From the NCBI GenBank assembly GCA_013153055.1, contig JAADFE010000043.1, forward strand, positions 1 to 37,468: a stretch of DNA of 37,468 nt, read 5' to 3'. This DNA comes from Campylobacterota bacterium. Its GTDB lineage: Bacteria; Campylobacterota; Campylobacteria; Campylobacterales; Sulfurovaceae. This document shows positions 859-35,480 of this stretch, one piece after another; within the stretch, counting starts at the first letter, position 1; every line of letters begins with the position of its first letter. The translations under genes were made by a program, and so were the position numbers. The notes under the pieces were generated by a model, which had not been told where the DNA came from, did no database searches, and saw only the letters and a program-made list of their open reading frames with translations.

Positions 859-2088
859 TTATCTAATAACTTCATCTACATCCAAAGTAGCTGTTCTCCA
901 AGAAGGAATAATGGTGGCTGCTAAGTATATTGGAACAGATAAGAAAAATACTAAAAATAGTAATTGTATATCAAATACAAATGGTAATTCAAAAGTTGTT
1001 TTTAGTTGAGAATAACCTACAAATATATCTCTAAGAATAGGTGCTTTTAGGATATATACATACCAAAATGCTATTAAAACGCCTATAAGATAAGCGAAAA
1101 ATGATATTATAAAAGCTTCATAAAACTTCTCTTTTAGTATATCATCTACTCTCCAACCAACTGCTTTTAGGATACCTATTTCTCTCTTTTCTTCTGAACT
1201 TAAACCACTAGTTTTATCATATATAATCATAAAAAATGTAAATATGGCTACCACAAATAGAGCCAAAAAAACACCACTTTTATAATCAAATATATTTTGA
1301 TAACTTACTTTTAAATCATTATTGGTGATTATTCTAGTATCTGGATAGAGTAGTTTTATTTTAGATGCTATAGTTGGTATCTCTTTTGGATTGGCTACTT
1401 TTACGACTATATCTGTAGCTTTATCTTTTGGCATGTCAAAAATTTCTCGGACATCCTCTTTTGACATTAATATAATATCATTTGATTCTAGTTGTGTATC
1501 TCCTTTAAATACTCCTGCTAGATATATTTTTTTTAGATTTCCATCAGGTTTTATAAAATTAAAATAGTCGTTATAATAGTTTTTTGTAAGTACTTTTTGA
1601 ACACCTTCTCCGACAATCATACTTTTTTCTTTGTGTAACTTTTCAAAATCAAACTTTTCTACTACTTGAGATAGTGCTTTTGTATATTGTTCTTCATATT
1701 GGTCTATACCTACTATTGAAAAATTGACTCCTGCATTTGCAAAATAGTAATATCCCCAAACTCTAGGAGTGGCTTGTTCTACTCCTGCTATAGTTAATAT
1801 TTCATCTGCAACTGAGTTATCTATATCATAATGTCTTCCTGCTTTTAATTTTTGTACTATTATCTGAGGTAAGGCATCAACTGTTGTTTGTAGCTCATAT
1901 TTTATAGAGTTTGTAATTAAAAAGATAGACATAAGTAATGTAGTCAATAGAGTAAAAAGCACAAATATAAATATATTTTTCCCTTTTGCTCTAAGTATTG
2001 AATTGATAGCAAATTCAATAAGATATCTGTTTATTCTATTTTTCAATAGATTGCTCCTGATTAATAATATGAGAGTGAGAATATACAA
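859..2088 (-). CDS. ABC transporter permease, FtsX/MacB-like
   Basis: ORF 409 aa; N-terminal TM helix, large extracytoplasmic domain, C-terminal FtsX-like region (SSEEKREIGILKAVGWRVDDILKEKFYEA...). The true start may be internal to the ORF. Confidence 0.85.
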   Translation of the reverse strand: MYILTLILLIRSNLLKNRINRYLIEFAINSILRAKGKNIFIFVLFTLLTTLLMSIFLITNSIKYELQTTVDALPQIIVQKLKAGRHYDIDNSVADEILTIAGVEQATPRVWGYYYFANAGVNFSIVGIDQYEEQYTKALSQVVEKFDFEKLHKEKSMIVGEGVQKVLTKNYYNDYFNFIKPDGNLKKIYLAGVFKGDTQLESNDIILMSKEDVREIFDMPKDKATDIVVKVANPKEIPTIASKIKLLYPDTRIITNNDLKVSYQNIFDYKSGVFLALFVVAIFTFFMIIYDKTSGLSSEEKREIGILKAVGWRVDDILKEKFYEAFIISFFAYLIGVLIAFWYVYILKAPILRDIFVGYSQLKTTFELPFVFDIQLLFLVFFLSVPIYLAATIIPSWRTATLDVDEVIR

Positions 2089-2347
2089 AAGTAGTAGGGA
2101 AATACTCTCTCAAAGATGGGTCATCACTATATATAGAAAATATATCACTCAAAGTTCTATGCCTGATATATAAAGATTCTGTAGAGATTGCCAAATCAGG
2201 TAATCCTACTATATGAGTGAACTGTTTTTTATATAATTTTTGTTGATTTGTTATAGATTTTGTCAAAGAGAGATATAATATCTCTCCTATAAACAAAATT
2301 ATAACAGATAAAAAAATATAAAAAAGTCTATGACTTTTTCTATTCAT
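2036..2347 (-). CDS. Small single-pass membrane protein of the NosL/ABC transporter locus
   Basis: 103 aa ORF, hydrophobic N-terminal anchor MNRKSHRLFYIFLSVIILFIGEILYLSL; overlaps permease ORF; AAGGG upstream of ATG. Confidence 0.6.
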   Translation of the reverse strand: MNRKSHRLFYIFLSVIILFIGEILYLSLTKSITNQQKLYKKQFTHIVGLPDLAISTESLYIRHRTLSDIFSIYSDDPSLREYFPTTFVYSHSHIINQEQSIEK

Positions 2348-2370
2348 ATATTGAACCCTTGTGTGGTTTA

Positions 2371-2418
2371 GGAAACGATGGCTTTAGCCTCGTATTCGGG
2401 TCTAAAGACTCCGTTTCC
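2371..2418. repeat. Dispersed palindromic element, copy R1
   Basis: ggaaacgatggctttagcctcgtattcgggtctaaagactccgtttcc; imperfect long hairpin. Confidence 0.85.
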
Positions 2419-2427
2419 AAAGAAATC

Positions 2428-2550
2428 TTATTCATCCAGTTTCAAAACTTCTTTTTGTGTTATTTTATCAAATGAAACTATATTCTTACCATTAAACAAA
2501 ATTATAACAGATAAAGAAATATAAAAAAGTCTATGACTTTTTCTATTCAT
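2428..2550 (-). CDS. Chimeric 40-aa ORF created by tandem duplication (anchor-like N-terminus fused to NosL C-terminal tail)
   Basis: Manual translation MNRKSHRLFYISLSVIILFNGKNIVSFDKITQKEVLKLDE*, in frame across the duplication junction; AAAGG about 8 nt upstream of ATG. Expression unknown. Confidence 0.4.
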   Translation of the reverse strand: MNRKSHRLFYISLSVIILFNGKNIVSFDKITQKEVLKLDE

Positions 2551-2573
2551 ATATTGAACCTTTGTATGGTTTA

Positions 2574-2621
2574 GGAAACGATGGCTTCAGCCTCGTATTC
2601 GGGTCTAAAGACTCTGTTTCC
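2574..2621. repeat. Dispersed palindromic element, copy R2
   Basis: ggaaacgatggcttcagcctcgtattcgggtctaaagactctgtttcc; duplicated with the 203-bp unit. Confidence 0.85.
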
Positions 2622-2630
2622 AAAGAAATC

Positions 2631-3737
2631 TTATTTATCCAGTTTCAAAACTTCTTTTTGTGTTATTTTATCAAATGAAACTATATTTTTACCATGATGG
2701 TCACTCATAAAAGTTTTGGCATCACTCTCTAGCTCAAAAGGTATCAGTTCATTGCCCATAGGACCTGTAACATCAGAACCAATAACATAATAAGCTTTTT
2801 TACCATCTATTGTTTTTTGAGAGTAATAATCTGTAACCAATATCTCTTTTATATTTTCAGGTGTTAATGTTTCAAATTTTCCATATTGAGTTCTATCAAA
2901 ATAGAATTTCATCATATCTTTTACACCATCAAAAGATAATCTATTTCCATCTTTATATACTATTTGTGAAGCCCATTTAGGATATTTATAAACAAACATA
3001 CCACATACTGGACATTTGTCTTTTTTGGTTAATTTTATATTTTCAGTAGTATTGCTTTTTGGTTTTTCTCTTTTGACATCCCAAAGATATAAAGCTACTG
3101 CTTGGAGTTGTTTTTCATTTATATCTGCACATATATTTTGATTTTTTATTTCTGATTTCAATTCATTAATAGCATGAAATTTATTTGGGTCTATTTTATC
3201 ACTTTGGCATTTTTTTGCCAATAGTTTTTTACCCATTGGATACATCATTTTTTTCTTTTTCATACTTACCATAGCACTATCTTGTTTTAGTGAAGATTTT
3301 GCTTCTTTGAGTACTGTATCAAAATCTGTTATTTTTCCACCATGTTTTTTAACAAAATTTTCTGCTTCATCTTTTGTTGCAAAAGCCAATTTGCTAACTT
3401 TGCTCATAGTCCCTTTTACATCTGAACCCATTACAAAAAAAGCATCTTTTGCAATAATTGGTTTTTGAGTTGAAGCATCTATTACTTTAATATCTTCTAA
3501 TTTAGTAGGGTTATTAGCCATATCAGCTACTAAACATCTAATAGAACAGTACTGCTTATCTCCTGATATATATGATGTTTTATAGAACATTTTGAGGTTC
3601 ATCCCACATACACTACACCACATCTTTTTAGCACCATCTTGAACCAATACAGGCTCAACAGTAGCTTTTTTACTAAATGGTTCTGCATTTAATATAGAAA
3701 TCATTAATAGCATTATTAATGAAAGTTTTTTCAACAT
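2631..3737 (-). CDS. NosL-family protein with two CxxCGM domains and a heme-less cytochrome-like linker
   Basis: 368 aa; MWCSVCGMNLKMFYKTSYISGDKQYCS and KCPVCGMFVYKYPKWASQIVYKDGN; both halves contain the NosL-type MGSDV/IGSDVTGPMG motif. Confidence 0.85.
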   Translation of the reverse strand: MLKKLSLIMLLMISILNAEPFSKKATVEPVLVQDGAKKMWCSVCGMNLKMFYKTSYISGDKQYCSIRCLVADMANNPTKLEDIKVIDASTQKPIIAKDAFFVMGSDVKGTMSKVSKLAFATKDEAENFVKKHGGKITDFDTVLKEAKSSLKQDSAMVSMKKKKMMYPMGKKLLAKKCQSDKIDPNKFHAINELKSEIKNQNICADINEKQLQAVALYLWDVKREKPKSNTTENIKLTKKDKCPVCGMFVYKYPKWASQIVYKDGNRLSFDGVKDMMKFYFDRTQYGKFETLTPENIKEILVTDYYSQKTIDGKKAYYVIGSDVTGPMGNELIPFELESDAKTFMSDHHGKNIVSFDKITQKEVLKLDK

Positions 3738-5250: not shown

Positions 5251-6612
5251 TTACTTTGTTTGTGCCAAGCACATTTGCCTATCTCTATCGCTTAAACCTG
5301 AACTAAAACAGTAACTCTCTTGTCCTGTTGCACTTGCCAAACACATATTACGGTCTCTATCACTTTTTATATATGAACTAAAACAGTAACTATCTTTTTT
5401 TGTTGCACTTGCTAAACACATCTGTCTATCTCTATCACTTTTTATATCTGAGCTAAAACAGTAATTCTCTTGTCCTGTAGCACTTGCTAAACACATCTGT
5501 CTATCTCTATCACTTAATCCTGAACCATAACAGTAGTTACTCTCTTTAGTAGCACTTGCCAAACAGATATTACGGTCTCTATCACTTTTTATATCTGAAC
5601 TAAAACAGTAATTTTTACCTTTTGAAGAGGTTGTCTTGTTGGCAACATATGTTTGACCAGTCTTAACTTTATAATCCCATGTAGCATTTTTCAGCTCATT
5701 ATAGGCACTCAATTGATTTGTACTGGCATAAAGTTTATAGATTTTACTCTTATCTTGAGATTGTAAAGCACTACACTCATTAACACTATAAGAGACATCT
5801 TTTTGCGTCGCTCCACCAGACCCCATTCCCTCAAAAAAACCTACATTTTCTCTGCGAGTTATATTTTTACTAAAATGACACTTTGCATTAAAAGTAAAAA
5901 CAATGGGTTTACCTCCTCCATTTGGAGAGAGAATAATATCATACTGTTGACCTGAACCTCTATATTTTAAAGTGTATCCAAGTTCTTTTAGTAGATATTT
6001 ATACTCAATGGAATTAAAAAAATTATCTATAGTTAAATTTTTTCCAAATTCAGAAAAATTTAATGCTTTTTCTCGAAAATGTTTTGTATCATACCCATTG
6101 AATTTTTCTAAAAAAGCAGGTAGTTGATTGAGGTTTTGTACTTTACGAATATAATACTCACGCATCAACTCATGCTTTCCTGTTTTTCCAGAATCTCCAA
6201 TTTTATTGGCTAATTTTTCAAGGTCGTCTAAATTACCATCTGCTTTATAGGCAACAAAAAGAGCATCCTTCGTTCCCATAGAGCGTAATCTCTCTATGAC
6301 TTTTTTAGTCATTTTAAAATTTCTTGCTCTTACGGGTAATTTTTTTTCTAAATGTAAATAACTTTCTAAAATATTTACATCATTTGATTTATCTACAATA
6401 GCTCGTATCTTATTTAAATAGATAGGTTTACCAAACTCATACATTAAATCTTTACAACTCTCAAAAGAGTCCTCTTCTAAACAAGCGTGTTCAGGAGATG
6501 AGTTATCTAGTTCTTGAAACTCTTTCAAATACTCCTCTTTTGACATAGCATGTAGAAAGACTTGTAGAAAAAATAAAAAAAAGAGTAAAAATATAGATTT
6601 TTTATTCATCAT
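5251..6612 (-). CDS. Secreted protein with five C-terminal Cys-containing tandem repeats
   Basis: 453 aa with N-terminal signal sequence; C-terminal (N/S)YCFSSDIKSDRDRxxCLASATxxx units. Confidence 0.8.
   Translation of the reverse strand: MMNKKSIFLLFFLFFLQVFLHAMSKEEYLKEFQELDNSSPEHACLEEDSFESCKDLMYEFGKPIYLNKIRAIVDKSNDVNILESYLHLEKKLPVRARNFKMTKKVIERLRSMGTKDALFVAYKADGNLDDLEKLANKIGDSGKTGKHELMREYYIRKVQNLNQLPAFLEKFNGYDTKHFREKALNFSEFGKNLTIDNFFNSIEYKYLLKELGYTLKYRGSGQQYDIILSPNGGGKPIVFTFNAKCHFSKNITRRENVGFFEGMGSGGATQKDVSYSVNECSALQSQDKSKIYKLYASTNQLSAYNELKNATWDYKVKTGQTYVANKTTSSKGKNYCFSSDIKSDRDRNICLASATKESNYCYGSGLSDRDRQMCLASATGQENYCFSSDIKSDRDRQMCLASATKKDSYCFSSYIKSDRDRNMCLASATGQESYCFSSGLSDRDRQMCLAQTK
5260..5622 (-). 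repeat. Coding tandem repeat (five 24/25-aa units, last one truncated)
   Basis: NYCFSSDIKSDRDRNICLASATKES / NYCYGSGLSDRDRQMCLASATGQE / NYCFSSDIKSDRDRQMCLASATKKD / SYCFSSYIKSDRDRNMCLASATGQE / SYCFSSGLSDRDRQMCLAQTK. Confidence 0.9.
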
Positions 6613-8505: not shown

Positions 8506-8514
8506 CATTAACTT

Positions 8515-8565
8515 GGAACCGATGGCTTCAGCCTCGTTTTTTTCGGGACTGAAGTCTCCGACTCC
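8515..8565. repeat. Dispersed palindromic element, copy R3 (between convergent genes)
   Basis: ggaaccgatggcttcagcctcgtttttttcgggactgaagtctccgactcc. Confidence 0.88.
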
Positions 8566-8574
8566 AAAGAGTAT

Positions 8575-25019: not shown

Positions 25020-25295
25020 TTGAGACCAATTTATACAAAAATAGTTATAAGCTCTATTATACTAAGCTCCATGCTTTTTGCGAATACCTAAGATAATAAT
25101 AAAACCAAACCAAAATCAAAACCAAAAGAGCCATATGAGACCGTATGGCAAAAGATATATGGTGGTAGTGACGATGATATAGCCCATGGAATTAGTCGTA
25201 CAAGTGACGGGGCTATCATTATAGTAGGGGAGAGTGATAGTTTTAAAAGAAGTACAGATTTTTATATGATAAAGGTAAAAAGGAGTAAAAAATAG
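25020..25295 (+). pseudogene. Degraded secreted beta-propeller-repeat protein with one nonsense codon
   Basis: 92-codon frame: (TTG)RPIYTKIVISSIILSSMLFANT*DNNKTKPKSKPKEPYETVWQKIYGGSDDDIAHGISRTSDGAIIIVGESDSFKRSTDFYMIKVKRSKK*; TAA at 25089-25091. Confidence 0.7.
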
Positions 25296-25299
25296 TCTA

Positions 25300-25342
25300 G
25301 GAAACGATGGCTTCAGCCTCGTTTTTTTCGGGACTGAAGTCT
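25300..25342. repeat. Dispersed palindromic element, copy R4 (right arm lost or degenerate)
   Basis: ggaaacgatggcttcagcctcgtttttttcgggactgaagtct followed by ttgatgattt. Confidence 0.8.
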
Positions 25343-25415
25343 TTGATGATTTAATATAAGAACTAGAAAAAAAATTGTTATCATGTTATAATACATCAAA
25401 AAAAGGATAAAACAG

Positions 25416-25658
25416 ATGCAACAGATAACTATAAATGTAAATCCAACTATCTATGAACACATTATGTTTTTCTTGCAAAATCTGCCTAAAAATTTAATAG
25501 ATATTCAATATCCAACTAAAACTGTATCAACTCCATCTAATTTATCCTCATCAAAAGCGTTTGGTATATTAAATGGAAAAATCAAAGACCCTGTAAATTG
25601 GCAAAGAGAGATACGAGAAGATAGTGATAGAGATGTTTATAAAGATTTTGAGAGATGA
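25416..25658 (+). CDS. VapB-like antitoxin candidate
   Basis: 80 aa ORF overlapping the PIN-domain gene by 4 nt; C-terminus AFGILNGKIKDPVNWQREIREDSDRDVYKDFER resembles a toxin-binding tail. Confidence 0.75.
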   Translation: MQQITINVNPTIYEHIMFFLQNLPKNLIDIQYPTKTVSTPSNLSSSKAFGILNGKIKDPVNWQREIREDSDRDVYKDFER

Positions 25659-26020
25659 AGTATCTTTTGGATTCTAATATTATTATCTATTATCTCAATG
25701 GAGATAAAGATATTTATAACTTTGTAGAAAAGCACAAAGTCATATCAGCTATCTCTTTGATTACCTATTATGAAGTTCTAAATTATAATTTTTCAAAAGA
25801 AGAAGAGCAAATAGTTAGAGATTTTTTAGATGGATTTGAGGTTTTATCTGTTTCAAGAAATATTATAAATAAGGCTCTTGAAAACAGAAAAATTAAGAAA
25901 ATAAAAATGGCTGATAATTTTATTTTGGCAACAGCACAGATATTTGGACTTGATATTGTTACTAGAAATATCAAAGATTTTTCATCTTTTACAGATAGAT
26001 TATTAAATCCATTTGAGTAA
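25655..26020 (+). CDS. PIN-domain toxin (VapC-like)
   Basis: 121 aa; MKYLLDSNIIIYYL, TYYEVL, KMADNFILATAQIFGLDIVTRNIKDF (PIN acidic residues). Confidence 0.88.
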   Translation: MKYLLDSNIIIYYLNGDKDIYNFVEKHKVISAISLITYYEVLNYNFSKEEEQIVRDFLDGFEVLSVSRNIINKALENRKIKKIKMADNFILATAQIFGLDIVTRNIKDFSSFTDRLLNPFE

Positions 26021-26033
26021 TTTGAAATATAGT

Positions 26034-26072
26034 TTCAGCCTCGTTTTTTTCGGGACTGAAGTCTCCATTTCC
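26034..26072. repeat. Dispersed palindromic element, copy R5 (left arm lost or degenerate)
   Basis: ttcagcctcgtttttttcgggactgaagtctccatttcc. Confidence 0.8.
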
Positions 26073-26080
26073 AAAAAGTA

Positions 26081-27430
26081 TTACATCCACTCAACAACTT
26101 TTGAGACCTCATTTGCTATATAGCATTTAATAGGGGTCTCCTCTAAAGGTTTATTGGGGATAACAGCTTTGCTAAATCCTTGAGTGGCTATCTCTTTTAG
26201 CCTTTGAGATAGTGATGAGACCTCTCTAATCTCTCCTGTGAGGCTAACTTCACCTAAAAATATAGTCTCACTACTTAGCTCTCTATCTCTATATGAACTA
26301 AGTATAGAGGCTATAATGGCTAAATCAACAGCTGGTTCATTTACTTTAATCCCTCCTGATATATTGACAAATACATCATATGTTCCTAGTGGTAAATCTA
26401 GCTTTTTTTCTAGTAGGGCTAGTAGCATATTTAGTCTATTGTTATCAAATCCTGTTGAGCTTCTTTTTGGATGTCCATAAGCCTCAGCCACTAGTGCTTG
26501 TATCTCTATAATAATTGGTCTGCTCCCCTCCATCATTACAGTTAGGGCTGAACCTGAGGCTAGTTTAGTTTTGTTAAAAAATTTTCCAGCCATACTTTTT
26601 GCATCTAGTAGCCCTTTTTTACTCATCTCAAATATTCCAACCTCGTTGGTACTTCCAAAACGGTTTTTAAATCCTCTGAGGAGTCTAAGCTCAGAGTTAA
26701 CATCACCTTCAAAATATAAAACAGTATCAACCATATGCTCTAGTACTCTAGGACCTGCTATAGAGCCATCTTTTGTGATGTGACCTATGATAAATATAGC
26801 TATATCAAGGCTTTTTGCTACTCTCATTAGCTCAAAGGTTATGGTTCTAACTTGTGTTACAGAACCAGGGGCTGATGGGGTATCCTCTGAGTATAGAGTC
26901 TGAATAGAGTCTATCACTATAAATCCATAGTTTTTACTATTTATCTCTTGGAGAATAGTCTGCATATTTATCTCTGGGAGTAAAAAAAGTTCAGGATAGT
27001 TAGCATCCAATCGATTGGCACGGAGTTTTATCTGTCCTGCTGATTCCTCTCCTGATACATATAGTACATTGGTGTTTTGTTTTGCTAGATTACCTGCTAT
27101 TTTGAGCAAAAGGGTGGATTTACCGATACCAGGGCTTCCACCAATGAGTGTAAGTGAACCAGGTACCACTCCTCCACCTAGAACCAAATCTAACTCTTTG
27201 CTACCTGAACTAAATCTTTTGATATTCTCTTGCTCTATTTCTGTTATAGGTGTTGCTTTTGGATTTGAGGTGGTTTTGCTCAGCCCCTTGGTCTCTTCTA
27301 CAAATTTTATCTGTTCGGCTGTAAGTTCAACCATTGTATCCCACTCTCCACATCCTGTACATTTACCTAACCATCTAGGAGATTGAAATCCACATGCTTG
27401 ACACTCAAATAGGGTCTTTTTCTTTGCCAT
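26081..27430 (-). CDS. radA: DNA repair protein RadA
   Basis: MAKKKTLFECQACGFQSPRWLGKCTGCGEWDTM zinc finger; GGSPGIGKSTLLLKIAG; KNRFGSTNEVGIFEM; C-terminal Lon-like domain. Start set at MAKKK rather than the ORF-track start 27523. Confidence 0.97.
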   Translation of the reverse strand: MAKKKTLFECQACGFQSPRWLGKCTGCGEWDTMVELTAEQIKFVEETKGLSKTTSNPKATPITEIEQENIKRFSSGSKELDLVLGGGVVPGSLTLIGGSPGIGKSTLLLKIAGNLAKQNTNVLYVSGEESAGQIKLRANRLDANYPELFLLPEINMQTILQEINSKNYGFIVIDSIQTLYSEDTPSAPGSVTQVRTITFELMRVAKSLDIAIFIIGHITKDGSIAGPRVLEHMVDTVLYFEGDVNSELRLLRGFKNRFGSTNEVGIFEMSKKGLLDAKSMAGKFFNKTKLASGSALTVMMEGSRPIIIEIQALVAEAYGHPKRSSTGFDNNRLNMLLALLEKKLDLPLGTYDVFVNISGGIKVNEPAVDLAIIASILSSYRDRELSSETIFLGEVSLTGEIREVSSLSQRLKEIATQGFSKAVIPNKPLEETPIKCYIANEVSKVVEWM

Positions 27431-27610
27431 TGATAACTCTTTTTTCTGTAATGATAATATAATTTTGGTGGGAAATAGTATAAATATGTCAAATTGACAT
27501 AAAAGAGTATCTAATTTGTGCATAATTAAAAATTAGGAGAATATTATTTACTATTAGATACTCACTCAGATGGATTAAGGAGGAGAGAAAAAAATCCACC
27601 TGAATGAACA

Positions 27611-33937: not shown

Positions 33938-33961
33938 ATTACTAGACTTCTTGTAAAATTA

Positions 33962-34036
33962 GGAACCGACTGCTTTCTCAAAGAGAGTGCAAAGTACAAG
34001 AGCCTCGCTTTTTTCGGGATTAAAGTCTCCGATTCC
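33962..34036. repeat. Dispersed palindromic element, copy R6, with extra sequence inside the left arm
   Basis: ggaaccgactgctttctcaaagagagtgcaaagtacaagagcctcgcttttttcgggattaaagtctccgattcc. Confidence 0.75.
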
Positions 34037-34055
34037 GAAGAGTTTTGCAATAAGT

Positions 34056-35480
34056 CTACTTAAAATCATAACTCCTATTCAAAATTTTATAATAATCACT
34101 AAAATACTCCTCCATTTCAACTTTATTAGTAAAGATTTTATATACATCTTTGCTATCTCTAAGAGGGTCGGCTAATACAAAGTCGTTTTTATCTCCTCTA
34201 TTTATAAAAGCAAAATCTATACTATTTACTTGGTGTATGATTTTTGCTTTTTCTACTATTTTGACATTTATCCCTTTTTCTATCATAATTTTGATAGCTA
34301 ACTCTACCTCTTTATCTATATGAGACTCTATTACTACTATTAGATTTATATCTATACCATAATCTTTTAGATTATATAGTCTATTTTGAATTTTCATCTC
34401 TTGATAACCTGATTGAACCAAATAGTGGTTTGGGGTTAGCTCTTGGACTACATATAAGGGGATGTTTTTGATATTTTCCAAAGTTTTTATCATCTCATAA
34501 AAAGCTCTTTGATAGTTATAGACAAAATAGCTATTACCTTTTATTACTTTTTCAAAAAGGTTTTTAAATGAGTTAAACTCTTTTAATGCTAAACGATAGT
34601 AGAAACTTTTATTAAATCTGTTTTTGATAAGTTCTTGAAAAAATAGATAGTATCTCTTTAATCTTTGAGTATATTTAATAAGTAAATTATGGTCTAATTC
34701 ATCTATATTTTTATTAACTCTATTCTCTATAGCAGGTAAAATCTCTATACTATTTAGGATAAAATGTAAGTCCAATCTTTTAGTATCTAATATCTCTTTG
34801 GATAGTATAACCTTTTTTGCTCTTGGGACTTTATTGTCTTTTGGGCTAAATCCCATACATATTCCAACTGTATAGTTTGTATAGTTATCATTACTATCAT
34901 GAAATAGTAGATACTGTTTAGTTTGAGTTAAATTGATAGTGATAAACAACTCCCCATTATCTAAAAGAGATACACTCCCTTTTATGCTCTCTTGATTTAG
35001 AGATAGCTCTATCTTCATATCAAGCCCAACTCCTTTTTTCCATTCAACTATCTCATAATAGTATATATCTTTTTTATTATCACTATATAGATAGATATAT
35101 CTATAGTCAATTGGACTATGTACTCTTTTTTTCTCTATTAGATAATCATCTATTCTCTTTTCAAACTCCAAAAGGTTAGATGAATTTTTAAAATCATCTA
35201 ACTTAAATAGAGGCTCTCCTTTATACATATATTTTGAGATTTTATAATAGTTAAAACTCTTTTGAAAATCATTTGTACACTTTATACCATCTCTAAGCCA
35301 ACGACGCAATACTATTTTTCTATTGAAAAAAAACTGTTCATAGGCTTTTTGTTTATTGTTAGTATCAAACTTATCTATATTGAATTTATTATCATCTATA
35401 AAGGCTTTTGTAAATTTATCTAAATCGTTTTCAAAAAGTTTGTTATAAATTAATTGCAGTTTTTTTGTAAAAATCTTCAT
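34056..35480 (-). CDS. Orphan 474-aa protein of unknown function
   Basis: Long intact ORF on its own minus-strand unit; no motif recognised. Confidence 0.8.
   Translation of the reverse strand: MKIFTKKLQLIYNKLFENDLDKFTKAFIDDNKFNIDKFDTNNKQKAYEQFFFNRKIVLRRWLRDGIKCTNDFQKSFNYYKISKYMYKGEPLFKLDDFKNSSNLLEFEKRIDDYLIEKKRVHSPIDYRYIYLYSDNKKDIYYYEIVEWKKGVGLDMKIELSLNQESIKGSVSLLDNGELFITINLTQTKQYLLFHDSNDNYTNYTVGICMGFSPKDNKVPRAKKVILSKEILDTKRLDLHFILNSIEILPAIENRVNKNIDELDHNLLIKYTQRLKRYYLFFQELIKNRFNKSFYYRLALKEFNSFKNLFEKVIKGNSYFVYNYQRAFYEMIKTLENIKNIPLYVVQELTPNHYLVQSGYQEMKIQNRLYNLKDYGIDINLIVVIESHIDKEVELAIKIMIEKGINVKIVEKAKIIHQVNSIDFAFINRGDKNDFVLADPLRDSKDVYKIFTNKVEMEEYFSDYYKILNRSYDFK

Follow-up and report, generated by a model that had tools for sequence, protein, structure and literature searches.

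The vapBC-type operon and its flanking repeat

The stretch of DNA analysed here (the window, 37,468 nucleotides of a Campylobacterota genome of the Sulfurovaceae) carries a vapBC-type gene pair between the remnant of a truncated gene and the 3' end of radA (Table 1). As an earlier note on this DNA had stated, the pair is flanked by an exact 31-bp direct repeat, TTCAGCCTCGTTTTTTTCGGGACTGAAGTCT; 100 shuffles gave 0 matches. When mismatches are allowed, the repeat grows to 36 bp at 94%. The earlier note counted these two copies correctly and missed a third exact one, at 8527-8557.

Table 1. Features of the cassette site and related elements. Positions refer to the window unless a locus handle is given; G, genome; C, contig; L, locus.
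Feature	Position	Strand	Basis
Third element copy: same 31-bp core with both arms, between convergent genes	8513..8567	+	exact match, covariance model
Truncated gene remnant, left of the element; internal stop, no listed ORF	25021..25296	+	sequence reading
Left palindromic-element remnant: outer arm TAGGAAACGATGGC, 28-bp hairpin core and TCT, without right half	25298..25342	+	covariance model, arm tests
31-bp direct repeat, left copy	25312..25342	+	exact match
Insert between repeat copies: 691 bp, 25.2% GC (window 31%)	25343..26033	+	
Promoter-like site in insert, TAGAAA-17-TATAAT, extended TG	25364..25392	+	consensus match only
vapB-like putative antitoxin gene, 80 aa	25416..25658	+	operon position, conserved pairing with vapC
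vapC-like PIN-domain putative toxin gene, 121 aa	25655..26020	+	PF01850, E 3.8e-11; VapC structures
31-bp direct repeat, right copy	26034..26064	+	exact match
Right palindromic-element remnant: core and outer arm TCTCCATTTCCAA, without left half	26034..26074	+	covariance model, arm tests
radA, right neighbour, convergent with vapC	26081..27523	-	
Palindrome copies in hypF	L164 (G000 C82) 86-140 and 980-1034		
903-bp IS5-family IS	L332 615-1517; L352 1-903		

The profile of the putative toxin matches solved VapC structures (best 7by2, E 1.1e-23), and the acidic residues D6, E40, D87 and D108 are invariant in six homologues. As in VapBC type II systems, this PIN-domain gene is the second of the pair and follows a small upstream gene with a 4-bp overlap; the antitoxin differs from theirs in matching no curated family (Pfam, NCBIfam), and neither protein of the pair was matched by PADLOC. 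The 80-aa protein is called an antitoxin because of its operon position and its conserved pairing with vapC, its gene being kept next to vapC in two relatives (G020 and G008). Compared with G020, dN and dS are 0.17 and 0.59 for vapB and 0.10 and 0.87 for vapC, and both genes are under purifying selection. The pair is probably a PIN RNase toxin, with a predicted toxin activity, and its antitoxin, maintained by selection. The insert as a whole is a complete vapBC-type operon with its own promoter-like site.

The palindrome family and its partner insertion sequence

The 31-bp repeat lies within a palindromic element that is dispersed in this and related genomes. A covariance model of the palindrome, from whose build both cassette copies were excluded, gave 65 matches at E<0.01 in this 1.9-Mb incomplete genome; since strongly palindromic copies match on both strands, this corresponds to ~50-60 elements. 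Palindrome matches were found in 23 of the 34 genomes of the genus, and the contigs that carry them are mostly from Sulfurovum or Campylobacteraceae/Epsilonproteobacteria. Rfam had no match in the window.

Many copies extend outward into AGACTTCTTGCAAAAC..GTTTTGCAAGAAGTCT. The loci examined contained 38 distinct stretches with both terminal repeats, 30 of them 90-91 bp long, and most of the 38 are flanked by a 3-bp direct target duplication (e.g. AAT/AAT, ATT/ATT, ACT/ACT). The terminal inverted repeats, AGAC(A/T)TCTTGCAAAACTA, are common to the 90-91 bp copies and a 903-bp IS that is present in two relatives (G045, with a second copy in G022). The G045 copy has a two-frame DDE_Tnp_4 transposase gene and an ACT/ACT duplication, and its ends are those of the short copies; the IS transposase matches PF13359 with E 1.2e-21 and 4e-23. 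This partner transposase was not found in the present, incomplete genome, and is present in relatives. Because the MITE-sized copies and the 903-bp IS have the same ends, the palindrome is, judged by sequence, the body of an IS5-family MITE: it forms the middle of a dispersed element that is non-autonomous and tied by its ends to an IS5-family IS. Like known IS5-family MITEs, the family is short, gene-less and present in many copies, with 15-17 bp terminal repeats common to an autonomous DDE_Tnp_4 IS of the genus and a 3-bp target duplication. The two cassette copies differ in having one arm each, without their inner halves and without an intact left terminal repeat; none could be recognised by inspection left of 25298. 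The left cassette copy shares with other copies of the palindrome the form of a ~53-bp core without recognisable terminal repeats.

An origin from REP elements of RAYT (Y1) transposases was also considered. Such elements are likewise dispersed imperfect palindromes of similar size, and there is a Y1 gene in this genome too; however, 0 palindromes were found at the 30 Y1_Tnp loci of the genus and the Y1 gene here adjoins another repeat, GTAGGTCGGAC, and this origin was rejected. A Y1 (RAYT-like) transposase gene at L042 (1140-1890 and 1880-3125) is apparently interrupted by a ~280-bp insert with inverted ends, and adjoins another repeat family (GTAGGTCGGACTGCCCTCTGTCCGAC).

The palindrome also occurs in-frame inside ORFs, at ~25 loci by a raw count that may include chance open frames, giving peptides such as LESETSVPNKTRLKPSVPN; a tally of 284 strand-sites for in-ORF palindromes counts most elements twice. 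Two palindrome copies within this genome's hypF add ~17 and ~14 residues that are absent from relatives. Rickettsia palindromic elements, which lie inside protein genes, are the comparison case (PMC10969869). The palindromes share with them the in-frame position within protein genes (hypF and others), but belong to another phylum, the likeness seen being one of in-gene position.

Several variants were seen. A 114-bp MITE at window 33944-34057 has a 24-bp internal insert and an ACT/ACT target duplication, and two tandem 203-bp units at window 2290-2695 carry one palindrome copy each. At L193, L219, L267 and other loci the hairpin arms of the palindrome contain a second small element (ends CAATGCCAATGAATTAA) with ~10-bp duplications (GGCTTTAGCC, GACTGAAGTC); the resulting compound elements are 181-234 bp long. 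Elsewhere in the window, a 75-bp tandem repeat of 4.7 copies occupies 5263-5613, inside the ORF 5251-6612.

Arms of the two cassette copies

With both left out of its build, the covariance model recovered the two cassette copies, at 25298-25354 (58.0 bits, E 5.5e-12) and 26021-26074 (52.3 bits, E 1.4e-10). In an anchored test, each arm was scored against a background of AT-rich positions in the window. The left outer arm TAGGAAACGATGGC and the right outer arm CCATTTCC match the family with P 0.0007 each, which is the resolution limit of the test. Of the inner arms, that of the left copy (its right arm) does not rise above background (P 0.35-0.72); that of the right copy (its left arm) is marginal (P 0.04-0.11) and faintly resembles the family arm next to the core (ATGGC/ATAGT). 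An unanchored alignment of the inner arms, superseded by the anchored test, had given P 0.56-0.59; with vapC coding sequence in the alignment the value was 0.014. The asymmetry described earlier, with each copy keeping its outer arm and having no clear inner one, is thus borne out. Since vapC has a conserved coding end and its stop codon lies 13 bp upstream of the right core, there is no space for the missing half of the right copy.

The two outer halves, when joined, form a canonical family element (fold -9.7 kcal/mol), whereas the reciprocal join of the inner sides gives a bare core hairpin only (-4.5 kcal/mol). Among 39 elements of this genome, arm loss is seen in the two cassette copies, in the variant with an internal insert and in one copy with an indel-shifted right arm; no other ordinary short-form element is without an arm. 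Single-armed copies in relatives are mostly due to the nested second element with ends CAATGCCAATGAATTAA, and single-arm loss that is unexplained by a nested insert affects a handful of ~137 elements in other genomes. Cores were identical between separate element copies in 8 of 741 pairs.

Relatives of the pair and the insertion site

Orthologues of vapC with 79-82% identity are found in G020, in G008 (frameshifted) and in G013 (broken by stops), and a truncated one in G045. These related vapBC pairs lie in unrelated surroundings, and homology with them is confined to the stretch that begins ~33 bp upstream of vapB and ends at the vapC stop. No palindromic element adjoins the related vapBC loci of the genus. 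The pair moves between genomes like others of its kind, though not visibly together with the palindrome.

The earlier note had proposed that the cassette might excise by recombination between the repeats, rebuilding one full palindrome, and that other cassettes flanked by this repeat be sought. The rebuilt palindrome is borne out by the joined outer halves; excision itself gains no support, since the left terminal repeat is gone, the related pairs have no flanking elements and an inspection of close element pairs in six genomes turned up no second half/half cassette. Recurrent mobility or excision of the cassette is not supported, and from its sequence context it looks like a one-off insertion rather than a cassette that keeps moving. 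The 19 radA loci of the genus include none with an element and none with the same neighbour. Because this neighbourhood is not conserved, the relatives searched offered no empty site for comparison, and we therefore infer the direction and the mechanism of the event.

A composite transposon of two complete MITEs was ruled out because both inner ends are missing. There is a partial likeness to mobile insertion cassettes (MICs; PMC3913671, PMC5444012), in which the ends of an IS or MITE enclose passenger genes, as in the qnrD and qnrS2 cassettes. Here too a passenger gene pair lies, without a transposase, between the outer ends of one element. MICs, however, have intact terminal repeats and a target duplication around the passenger, whereas at this site the left terminal repeat is unrecognisable, no target duplication of the whole unit was seen and the 31-bp core is repeated inside.

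How the pair may have come to lie between two half elements

The most economical account, and one that we consider somewhat favoured, is that one pre-existing element was split by the pair, leaving the 31-bp core on both sides. Entry into a pre-existing element, which the earlier note had envisaged, is supported because the outer halves make up a canonical element and the reciprocal join a bare hairpin, and also by the rarity of arm loss; the order of events and the route of entry are conjectural. A resident MITE, today without an intact left terminal repeat, would have lain to the right of the decayed gene, beside the 3' end of radA. A piece of 691 bp with the self-sufficient operon would then have inserted into it with the hairpin core ending up on both sides, either through repair or template switching at the hairpin or through a single crossover between the resident core and a small circle carrying a core copy. 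The two repeats would now be passive scars; deletion of the cassette by slippage or recombination between them could occur, but 31 bp is short for that. Against the splitting of one element stand the absence of an empty site from every genome searched, the marginal likeness of the right copy's inner left arm to the family arm, and the fact that no transposase identified here makes a 31-bp duplication.

Two adjacent elements that lost their facing halves by deletion or replacement when the pair came between them would yield the same sequence, with the repeat as their shared leftover. This is a real but lesser possibility. Elements do cluster and form tandem arrays (window 2369/2572; arrays in C16 and C70), and separate copies with identical cores exist, the 8527 copy included; but two elements with identical cores would have to be truncated independently, on their facing sides and up to the same core, and single-arm loss without a nested insert is rare. 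The alternative raised in the earlier note, two complete copies each decayed independently by point mutation, has fared worse and is unlikely. It can draw on a weak, AT-shifted likeness between family arms and the inner ones (ttgat/ccgat, gaaatatag/gaaacgatgg), which reaches P 0.04-0.11 for one inner arm and nothing for the other. What counts against it is the loss of the inner arms beside a core with 0/31 differences: gradual decay must spare the whole core, with outer arms near consensus, yet replace about half of the inner arms, and vapC coding sequence sits where the left half of the right copy belongs. A break at the core explains the sequence better. Cassette systems of the integron or Xer pdif kind typically carry toxin-antitoxin genes, and a single crossover that joins a circle to a resident core would produce exactly this arrangement. 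It is nevertheless highly improbable that the core is a recombination site for circulating small cassettes, like integron attC or Xer pdif, through which the pair arrived in circular form and could leave again. Such systems have several cassettes with the same site, and no other was seen among the close pairs examined in the six genomes; no core flanks the related vapBC pairs, and the 3-bp target duplications, like the copies within protein genes, suit a MITE and not an att site. The broader notion, that the hairpin core of Sulfurovum MITEs is a hot spot or recombination site that captures and loses small cassettes such as toxin-antitoxin pairs, is very doubtful too.

If a single element was indeed split, the site would be a sequence-level case of a toxin-antitoxin pair settling in a chromosome within an intergenic repeated hairpin, with little harm done, and excision of the cassette would be a claim open to testing, though an unlikely one. 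Of wider use is that a high-copy MITE family of Sulfurovum has been identified together with its IS5-family partner.
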